Shown piece after piece: positions 29,978-32,414 of a stretch of 64,000 nt of DNA (its first letter is position 1; every line of letters begins with the position of its first letter). The DNA is from Nitzschia sp. pyKryTriq1 (lineage: Eukaryota > Bacillariophyta > Bacillariophyceae > Bacillariales > Bacillariaceae): the NCBI GenBank assembly GCA_956465555.1, contig OY101118.1, positions 1,302,001 through 1,366,000 on the forward strand, given 5' to 3'. The notes under the pieces were generated by a model. It made no database searches. It was not told where the DNA came from and saw only the letters and a list, made by a program, of their open reading frames with translations. The translations under genes and the position numbers were made by a program.

Positions 29978-30946
29978 CTATTTTGATTCTTTGACGTCCG
30001 GTTGCGATTCAAAATCATCCCACCCGTAATCAATCAAGTCATCAGAATGAAATCCTTTGAGTGGGTCAGGTCGGAAAGTAGATTTCTTCTTGTTGGCAAA
30101 CTTGTCCATGGTCTTCATTTGGATATTATCCATGGGTATATTTTCGATGAACCTGTCATTCAGTATCGCATCTTCAACTTCGGAGTTTCCCCAGTCGTAG
30201 AAGTGGATTGGCATGTCCAAAACTGTCTCGACCACTTGATAGTCCCAACCCGGCATGGGGTACCCACAGCAAAAGATTCTACAGCGTTTTCCTCGAAGCG
30301 CGTTTTCAAGTAGAGGACGAATCTTTTCGAGGCCCTCCTTTGCAAAGTACATGGTTAAAATCGTTGCCTCTTTGATATGATCCCATGCAGGATTAGAAGG
30401 ATCCATCAAGTCCGCCACGAGGAATTCGAGGTTCGGCTTGGGATGGATTCGATTCAAGCGGTCATTCGCCACCTGAACAATATCTTCATCGACATCGATT
30501 CCAATTGACCGCTGTACCCCCGCCTCTATGGCAAAAAAGTTCACCCGGCCATCTCCCGACCCTAACTCCACGTGAATGTCCTCGGGCGTCGGGTCTGCGC
30601 GGTCAAATATTTTTCGGGCCACCGAATCGGGGACAGGTGTCCACGGGCTGAGAGTTGCTTTTTCCGAATACTCCTCCAGTGAATCGCCAGAGTACTGAAA
30701 CGGGCCTTCCATACCGCTCGGAGCTTGCAGTAATTGGTGGCCCATCTGTGGGCTGTCGTACTTTTCATATTTTTTCCGCTTTCGTCGAAGTGTCACCATG
30801 CCTCGTCTGATATTGCTTCCAGAAAAATCAGTTTCTCCATAATTCAGTTGACAAGTCGTCGTAGACGCACAAGGGTTATGTCGAAACGAGGGTCGACTTC
30901 TTCCAAGCGCTTCTCTTACGCCTTGTCGAAATGAAGATGTGATCAT
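29978..30946 (-). CDS. Class I SAM-dependent methyltransferase, probably organellar
   Basis: The 322-residue protein has the Rossmann methyltransferase motif I (VELGSGDGRVNFF, near 125). Motif II ends in an acidic residue (SIGIDVDEDIV), then come EFLVADLMD and a YFAKEGLEKIRPLLENAL helix followed by the CCGYPMPGW strand. This arrangement resembles the FAM173/ATPSCKMT lysine methyltransferases and their bacterial relatives, but the substrate cannot be assigned. The first 50 residues are rich in Arg, Ser and Thr with few acidic residues, as in a mitochondrial presequence. The open frame extends 32 codons further upstream without an ATG, so the start is set at the ATG at 30946. A short upstream exon cannot be excluded. 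Confidence 0.7.
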   Translation of the reverse strand: MITSSFRQGVREALGRSRPSFRHNPCASTTTCQLNYGETDFSGSNIRRGMVTLRRKRKKYEKYDSPQMGHQLLQAPSGMEGPFQYSGDSLEEYSEKATLSPWTPVPDSVARKIFDRADPTPEDIHVELGSGDGRVNFFAIEAGVQRSIGIDVDEDIVQVANDRLNRIHPKPNLEFLVADLMDPSNPAWDHIKEATILTMYFAKEGLEKIRPLLENALRGKRCRIFCCGYPMPGWDYQVVETVLDMPIHFYDWGNSEVEDAILNDRFIENIPMDNIQMKTMDKFANKKKSTFRPDPLKGFHSDDLIDYGWDDFESQPDVKESK

Positions 30947-31289
30947 ATTATTATTATTTGCTATCGGGTTTGTGCGGATCGGCTGCTTCTTGGTAAACGC
31001 TGGAATCCTGGTGCGAACAGCAGCGATAACACTGCACGACAATTTCAGTGGAAGGGGAATGAGCGGGTCGGTCGCGGATACGTACGATGACCAATTCTAG
31101 AACTGTCGTCTATCTTGCTTTTGTGGTGCTCGCCATCATCATCATTCATCATTCATCATTCATCATCGATCATTGTCAATCGTCAATCGTCAAAAAACAC
31201 TTTACTCGGGGCCGAGCTAAAAAACGAGGAGCAAAATTTCCCGGTCGGCGGCTAGACGGATTGTCTCAAAAGACTCATTCGACCGCAAA

Positions 31290-31297: not shown

Positions 31298-31338
31298 TGT
31301 TTCTTCCACGCTGACGAGCGCGGCGTCATCATCTGCTG

Positions 31339-31974
31339 ATGCCTTCTCTCCATCCCCCGTCGCCTCGTGCGTTGTCGTTGTTGTTGTTTTTCGTTTCACG
31401 TCTTTCATTTCCGATCTCATTGTGCAAAAGACCAAGGATGCTTGGAACTTTTCTGTCGCCTGCAACGCGTATGGGAGGAGTTTATCAAAGAGCTCTAGCT
31501 ACATCTGCCTCTATCATGTCGTTTTACAATCTATCTGCTGTCAAGGGAGACGGCTCGGTTCAATCCATGGAAGATTTTCGTGGAAAAGTGGTGTACGCCA
31601 CAAACGTCGCTTCCATGTGAGGTGCGACCCGCCGCGAGTATGCTCAGTTTGAGAAGCTCGGTCAACGGTGGGGAGATGATCTTGTGATAATGGGATTCCC
31701 AACTCTGGAATTCGGTGCTCAAGAGTACAAGAATGACGCAGAGGTTGCCGAATTTGCCAAGGGCAAAAACTTTCCTGGAATTCTAATGAAGGTCGGAAAG
31801 ATCAAAGGTGACAGCGCCCCTGAGGTTTGGAAGTTCTTCCAGCAAGAAACTGGAGCGCCTGATCCTACTTGGAACTTCAAGGGGAAATTCCTCGTCTCCA
31901 AAAGTGGTGTAGTTTCAACCACGGAACCAGGATCTGCCGTGGAAGATGACATTGCGGCCTTGATGGAAGAATAG
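31339..31974 (+). CDS. GPX: Selenocysteine-containing glutathione peroxidase (in-frame TGA)
   Basis: GPx enzymes reduce hydroperoxides with glutathione or thioredoxin. The frame VVYATNVASM runs into TGA at 31618-31620 and continues in the same frame as GATRREYAQFEKL up to TAG 31974. The TGA falls exactly at the peroxidatic position of the NVAS-U-G motif, so I read it as Sec94 of a 211-residue protein. Partner residues of the active site are present: Gln in FGAQE and Trp-Asn in WNFKGKFLV. The usual PCNQFG is PTLEFG, so the resolving Cys found in thioredoxin-type GPx is absent. ATGs at 31339, 31438 and 31516 are possible starts. The middle one gives a mitochondrial-type presequence (MLGTFLSPATRMGG); the first adds a hydrophobic leader. 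No intron. Confidence 0.85.
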
Positions 31975-32036
31975 AGGTGGGTAGAGTGCGAGTACAAGCA
32001 CTCCTGGAAAATACGAACAGTGTTGCTACCTGAATG

Positions 32037-32100
32037 CCGATGCCGCGAATGACGAAGCTGTGTGTTGCTACACACTCCTTCTGATCCCTGCGCTCGTCGG
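32037..32100 (+). promoter_or_regulatory. SECIS-like hairpin in the GPx 3' UTR (no apical AA seen)
   Basis: Starting 62 nt after the stop codon, the RNA can fold with CCGA/TCGG and CGCG/TGCG forming a lower helix. A non-Watson-Crick core follows: ATGA at 32049-32052 opposite GAT at 32083-32085, giving U-U, G-A and A-G pairs. An upper helix of GAAG/CTTC and GTGTGT/ACACAC is closed by a TGCT loop. This is the layout of a eukaryotic SECIS element, placed correctly for the Sec-GPx. The apical AA (or CC) that most SECIS elements carry is missing, so it is either a variant or a coincidental hairpin. Confidence 0.5.
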
Positions 32101-32414
32101 TGTTTGTTCCCTTTGGAGTAGCAAAACCCTCGTATGATAAAGATATTGCCTACAATATTTCATTATTTTACGGTGTTATGACACAGAATAGCTTTGATGT
32201 TTGACGCATTGTGGATATTATGTTGCATACCAAGGGCTTCGGGCGTTTGTTCCCTAAAGTCTTTCAAAAAGTACTGCAGTTAGGGGTGCCGAGATCGAAA
32301 ATTTCGTGCCCTCCATCTGATATTAGGACAAGGGGAGAGGTGGTGGTGGTGATTCCATCCTTGCTGGACTGCCCCTGGACTGCCCCGATCGATTCATTGG
32401 CCGGCGGAGAGTTT
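32101..32414. other. Convergent intergenic spacer
   Basis: The stretch between the GPx 3' UTR and the stop of the next minus-strand gene holds no gene I can support. It is AT-rich near 32150-32190 and probably contains polyadenylation signals for both genes. Confidence 0.45.

Follow-up and report, generated by a model that had tools for sequence, protein, structure and literature searches.

The locus considered here lies in a window of 64,000 nucleotides from Nitzschia sp. pyKryTriq1 (contig OY101118.1, positions 1,302,001 to 1,366,000 of the forward strand), and it raises two linked questions: whether a glutathione peroxidase (GPx) interrupted by TGA at its catalytic site is a selenoprotein, and whether a downstream hairpin without an AA in its apical loop can act as its SECIS element. 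The original prediction read NVASM-TGA-GATRREY in a single frame, with the Gln and Trp-Asn residues of the active site downstream, and we find both as described, the TGA at 31618-31620 and the residues as Q95 and W145-N146. Following an in-frame TGA at 31312, the reading frame stays open, save for the codon at 31618-31620, as far as a TAG at 31972-31974, and it contains in-frame ATGs at 31339, 31438 and 31516, any of which may be the start codon. The coding features, counted from the second ATG, are these:

31438..31974, + strand: coding sequence of a putative Sec-containing GPx of 178 amino acids, matched by Pfam GSHPx and by GPX4-type PDB chains
31618..31620, + strand: TGA codon, putatively Sec61 at the catalytic position, facing the catalytic-column Cys of GPX4-derived chains
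31972..31974, + strand: TAG stop codon of the GPx gene

Evaluating the 178-residue product, we obtained a match to Pfam GSHPx (PF00255) of 1.3e-21, at 76.6 bits against a cut-off of 27, spanning residues 29-134, so that homology extends on both sides of the TGA. GPX4-type PDB chains matched at E ~1e-18, the best natural structures being phospholipid hydroperoxide GPx/GPX4 chains at about 4e-18, and in two PDB alignments, both with designed GPX4-derived chains, residue 61 stands opposite the Cys of the catalytic motif. U61, Q95 (the Gln of GAQE), W145 and N146 are all found in the product, and we take them to be the catalytic tetrad of GPx. A replacement of the catalytic Gln by Glu (NQFG to LEFG) was suspected first and then rejected, as the catalytic Gln, by count against the numbering of GPX4 and GPx1, sits at the GxQE position and is kept. 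The likeness to GPX4 (phospholipid hydroperoxide glutathione peroxidase) consists of the Sec, Gln, Trp and Asn tetrad and a monomer-like length, whereas the aligned GPX4-derived chains read FPCNQFG where the window protein reads FPTLEFG, and the whole window protein has zero cysteines, so Sec61 would be its sole chalcogen nucleophile. The gene product would then be a monomer-sized, GPX4/GPx7-like enzyme with Sec61 encoded by UGA, for which Sec insertion and peroxidase activity are to be expected. Relatives of the window GPx were absent among viral contigs, and those among genome contigs came down to 40 GPx loci of bacteria, unsuited to comparing 3' UTRs. Divergent from the GPx gene lies an ORF on the minus strand (29978-31096) with a VELGSGDGR motif, which we assume to resemble the class I SAM-dependent methyltransferase motif.

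Searching the genome (40.65 Mb in 20 contigs), we found three tRNA-Sec genes over the Rfam cut-off with anticodon TCA, and an SBP2-like protein whose C-terminal part has as its best PDB match the SBP2 of 7zjw (1.3e-22); the organism presumably has eEFSec as well. Twelve further genes carry TGA at a Sec site, namely two GPx (L003, L004), SelT (L015), SelM (L017), two MsrA (L027, L028), SPS2 (L038/L123), two PDI-like (L121, L122, here PDIa and PDIb without regard to order) and three SelU/Prx-like genes (L076, L031, L030), with Sec sites judged by eye against the usual family motifs. These are the genes reached by our searches, which form part of the selenoproteome. Family membership, a TGA at the catalytic site, the tRNA-Sec genes, the SBP2-like protein and the 12 other genes together support the Sec-GPx reading, and judged by sequence the window gene is a real Sec-GPx gene. 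It is extremely unlikely that the TGA simply terminates translation, stems from a sequencing error or marks a pseudogene, with no Sec made: the codon is known from a single assembly, but this single stop falls on the Sec column of an otherwise intact GPx domain, in a genome with tRNA-Sec genes and an SBP2-like protein, where unrelated families have TGA at their own Sec sites.

Having a recoded TGA requires that we look to the 3' side of the gene, where the following features lie:

32032..32105, + strand: SECIS-type hairpin in the presumed 3' UTR, z = -5.03, top scan candidate within 500 nt of the stop
32047..32052, + strand: GA-AUGA, 5' half of the kink-turn (SECIS) core, common to other SECIS candidates of the genome
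32083..32084, + strand: GA, 3' half of the non-Watson-Crick quartet, from the scan
32066..32069, + strand: apical loop UGCU, without AA or CC, from the fold prediction

A hairpin had been proposed at 32037-32100, and a real, stable fold does exist there, although it is slightly longer, at 32032-32105. Its minimum free energy is -29.5 kcal/mol, whereas shuffled versions give -16.8 +/- 2.5 and none of 200 folds as well (z = -5.03). Fold and scan also bear out the ATGA/GA core and the upper helix of about ten pairs, which is predicted as two segments of 4 and 6 bp separated by a 2x2 internal loop (CU/UC). The ATGA at 32049-32052 would pair with the GA at 32083-32084 to form the quartet, which helix I and helix II are predicted to flank; this core stands on the coding strand 76 nt past the GPx stop, and the hairpin would be transcribed within the 3' UTR. 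As had been predicted, the TGCT loop has neither AA nor CC: no unpaired AA or CC occurs at offsets 8-14 after AUGA, and there is no A at offsets 5-17, so no refolding can give an apical AA on that strand.

To compare candidates, our scan sought NTGA ... GA with adjoining helices on the upper and the lower side and did not demand AA. Under a first scoring the window hairpin reached -30.9, against -26.2 for the best of 60 random 525-nt window segments; under a second scoring without the motif requirement it reached -22.4, bettered by 5 of 100 random 900-nt segments. Among background 500-nt segments (n = 500), 3% reached -22, and 0.4% did so with a GAATGA core. Neither the region nor three SECIS candidates, the window hairpin among them, matched any SECIS family of Rfam, and no RF00031 match was found among the 133 of 718 genome candidates that were scored.

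We considered whether the TGA is recoded through some other, canonical AA-bearing element of the 3' UTR, the hairpin at 32032-32105 being incidental. Canonical SECIS elements carry AA or CC (PMC2375036 and PMC3316567, both in part), and the end of the GPx 3' UTR is not fixed. Yet scan candidates bearing AA or CC at offsets 9-14 were absent within 500 nt of the GPx stop, where the window hairpin is the best-scoring candidate; within 900 nt its -22.4 is followed, whatever the kind of candidate, by scores of -8.9 or weaker; and under the first scoring over 1497 nt the runner-up reaches -19.3 against -30.9 and lies 1136 nt downstream. The window hairpin moreover shares its GA-AUGAC core with other selenoprotein UTRs, where it lies about as far from the stop, and we regard an element elsewhere as improbable. 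The hairpin at 32032-32105 is very probably the SECIS.

Turning to those other UTRs, we found a SECIS candidate element in 12 of the 13 Sec genes (the window gene included), with cores 40-195 nt from the stop in the eleven elements other than that of the window; the exception is the SelU-like gene L030 (C8:1559831; TGA in RPGUVLC), which has no convincing SECIS element within 500 nt of its stop. In the first 250 nt past the stop, 8 of 10 selenoprotein UTRs, the window included, contain GAATGA followed by C or T, as compared with 78 of 1408 background segments (binomial p 3.6e-9); for GAATGAC alone the counts are 7 of 10 and 39 of 1408 (p = 1.4e-9). Since the core motif was picked with the data already in view, both p values are to be multiplied by up to ~16,000, to ~6e-5 and 2e-5, and the background mixes coding and non-coding sequence on both strands of the window and loci L040-L075. 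Requiring both a GAATGA core and helices at a score <= -12 retained 9 of 10 UTRs and, among 500 background segments, 2.8%, PDIa being the only one of the ten without GA before its core element. The scan did not demand GA-ATGA(C/T), which nonetheless forms part of the top candidate in seven of the ten UTRs (window included; the exceptions are GPx L003, GPx L004 and PDIa). The nine selenoprotein GAATGA sites outscore 290 other GAATGA sites (p = 4.5e-10), only one of which scores as well as the window element, and that one belongs to L028, later found to be a Sec gene. These results support the prediction of a SECIS with a variant apical loop, its core being shared with other selenoprotein UTRs of the genome.

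Assessing the elements individually, we saw considerable variation. Folded alone, four of ten reach z <= -2 (window GPx -4.82, GPx L004 -5.01, SelU L076 -3.97, MsrA L027 -2.12) and six do not (PDIb and SPS2 -1.45, SelM -1.23, PDIa -1.01, SelT -0.68, GPx L003 +0.74), L028 and L031 having been left out of this set. When nine SECIS candidates were aligned at full length with MAFFT, their cores stayed out of register; shortened candidate pieces aligned without gaps in one MAFFT mode, which we considered too weak a basis for a covariance-model search of 40 Mb. GPx L003 has three rival elements, GAATGAC at 102 nt (-12.4, AA at offset 8), ATGAA at 71 nt (-16.2, AAAA at offsets 13-16) and GAATGAG at 724 nt (-17.3, or -38.3 under the first scoring, with CCCCC at offsets 8-12), all of them bearing AA or CC, so that this gene has one or the other whichever element is right. 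For GPx L004, the GAATGA element (-13.9) is slightly outscored by a candidate whose core is different and which has CC at offset 9 (-16.1). The MsrA gene L027 (C1:1879555-1879929) has an extra in-frame TAG inside its matched domain, which is either an intron or a lesion; its end was taken at the next stop, and its element is at most ~165 nt away if measured from the TAG.

As a negative control we used presumed Cys-type homologues, 50 of them listed without a stop in the matched stretch (50 of 55 loci, the others being duplicates or too short), and ended each gene at the first "stop" met in frame past the matched start, a codon that can fall in an intron. Three of the 50 have a GAATGA-core element at <= -12, namely L028 (-27.1), L031 (-14.3) and L057. 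An upstream TGA was sought in part of the control loci, these three included, and in L028 and L031 the Sec site, lying upstream of the stretch that had matched, turned out to be TGA, whereas L057 has Cys there. Since L028 and L031 are Sec genes, the Cys-type control is not clean; the scan had found two selenoprotein genes unprompted, and the check is partly blind. Among the remaining 48 control genes, GAATGAY occurs in three (L025, L026, L073) and an element at <= -12 in one (L057).

With twelve elements in hand, we evaluated the apical AA or CC across the set, by scan and predicted folds. An unpaired AA or CC at offsets 8-14 after AUGA is predicted in three of the 12 (SelT, AA at 9; GPx L003, AA at 8; SelU L076, CC at 10), and L031 is borderline, with AA at 10 at a helix end. 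The other eight (window GPx, SelM, MsrA L027, MsrA L028, GPx L004, SPS2, PDIa and PDIb) have none predicted, MsrA L028 and PDIa having AA or CC in sequence at these offsets, but paired. At the level of sequence, AA or CC occurs at offsets 8-14 in 6 of 12 elements, against 405 of 710 background ATGA sites (57%); given this lack of enrichment, the twelve-element set shows no sign of selection for AA or CC. The missing apical AA is real and is not peculiar to the window gene. Where the variant loop had been put forward as a trait of one gene, the loop does lack AA and CC as stated, but their absence seems common in the genome (8 of 12 elements), which suggests that the form without AA or CC is a common one among its SECIS candidates.

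Bringing these lines together, we consider it highly probable that the window gene encodes a GPx with Sec61 specified by UGA and that a kink-turn hairpin in its 3' UTR serves SBP2 as a SECIS without apical AA or CC. In this model the hairpin would fold into a kink-turn (GA-AUGAC / UGA) to be bound by the organism's SBP2, and the GA-AUGAY core and two helices would be the conserved determinants, with AA or CC kept by some genes and missing from the majority of those we looked at. The chances appear about even that a broader statement also holds, namely that in this lineage the apical AAR is no longer a general SECIS requirement and that a GA-AUGAY/UGA kink-turn between two helices specifies recoding, with the upper helix often closed and AA or CC present only in some genes. 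If so, docking of SBP2/eEFSec on the ribosome would work without the AAR, and SECIS searches demanding AA or CC would miss most of such a selenoproteome. Compatible with the AA-less SECIS is a refinement that we find rather doubtful, in which the function of the AA persists in another guise, the apical part refolding in vivo or other unpaired bases making the same contact (UGCU in the window, split A's in SelM, a single A in GPx L004). Helix II is indeed interrupted at offsets 9-14 by other bases in SelM (A11/A13), PDIb (G9/C10) and GPx L004 (A13), but the window element has no A anywhere in the wider offset range given above, and MsrA L027 and SPS2 have no AA or CC at offsets 8-14.

Set against the literature, the Sec-GPx is ordinary for an alga, and what we provisionally regard as new is the AA-less SECIS set, 8 of 12 candidates of the genome. 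Diatoms are reported to have 20-44 selenoprotein genes, with Sec-GPx genes known (PMC7539508, in part), and Thalassiosira pseudonana has 16 selenoproteins, two of them GPx, from a SECIS search that demanded AA or CC 10-13 nt past the quartet (PMC2375036, in part), so that AA-less elements could be overlooked. The apical AAR is described as one of two conserved motifs of eukaryotic SECIS, its exact role being called unknown, with AA in nearly all vertebrate elements and CC rare (PMC3316567, in part). For mammals it is described as essential for Sec insertion, and its deletion does not block L30 binding (PMC3706390, in part); a review states that AAR mutation leaves eEFSec recruitment unaffected, and mentions elements with CCC in place of AAR (PMC8659212, in part). 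Within the available parts of open-licence PMC full texts, we found no account of a genome in which eukaryotic SECIS elements commonly have neither AA nor CC.

The window element resembles eukaryotic SECIS of types I and II in its position 3' of the stop, its AUGA/GA quartet, helices I and II, and a genome with tRNA-Sec and an SBP2-like protein, and differs from them in having no unpaired AA or CC in an apical loop or bulge, in the recurrent GA directly before AUGA and in the missing Rfam SECIS match. It lacks the defining AAR feature of the classical SECIS, and we name it an AA-less SECIS variant that very probably works like a SECIS. The nearest precedent for a departure from AA at the apical site is the CC-type SECIS of mammalian SelM and SelO (in the available part of PMC3316567), whereas the window element has neither AA nor CC, and it is SelU L076 of this genome that has a predicted unpaired CC, at offset 10. 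Lineage-specific bases 5' of the quartet, common to non-homologous selenoprotein genes, are likewise reported for Dictyostelium (UGUA before the core) and Ostreococcus (G before the core), but the Dictyostelium elements all keep AAA, while this genome has GA as its shared bases and for the most part no AA (PMC2375036, in part, for the two other lineages). Asgard archaeal eSECIS-like structures share the AUGA_GA core and vary in their apical nucleotides, whereas the window element is eukaryotic and nuclear, and eukaryotic elements are called highly conserved by comparison (PMC11227280, in part). A genome mixing AA-bearing and AA-less SECIS offers a natural experiment on the role of the AAR, and tools demanding AA or CC would undercount selenoproteins in such lineages.

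The genome search also yielded observations on individual loci. The tRNA-Sec genes (L005-L007) lie at C5:2573652 and at C4:2830576 and 2830737, the C4 copies forming a tandem pair 161 bp apart and the C5 copy standing ~330 bp from an L7Ae-domain match (C5:2574068). A TrxR with C-terminal GCUG was not seen in the 201-221 bases inspected at 10 of 11 Pyr_redox_dim matches, where an exon boundary could hide one. L013/L014 (C9:1133824-1134547) form one gene with two SelW-like (Rdx) domains in tandem, each of which has Cys-x-x-Cys (YCTGCRW) in place of Sec, and in L017 the SelM-like domain (CQGUQLN) is followed by a long charged Glu/Arg/Lys-rich C-terminal extension within one open frame of ~458 aa. 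The selenophosphate synthetase of L123/L038 (C9) has its Sec in GUACK, where we assume the usual motif to be UGCK. The Sec-GPx L004 begins with a hydrophobic N-terminal segment (NALVFLGILSLLFIATMV) and is possibly membrane-anchored. Contigs C1 and C3 share pairs of matches that score the same or nearly so and are offset by ~1.14-1.15 Mb (for example C1:4599776/C3:3457415 and C1:4309215/C3:3171433), which represent either a segmental duplication, large and recent, or a haplotype left uncollapsed, and two contigs of 123 kb and 50 kb are sized like plastid and mitochondrial genomes.
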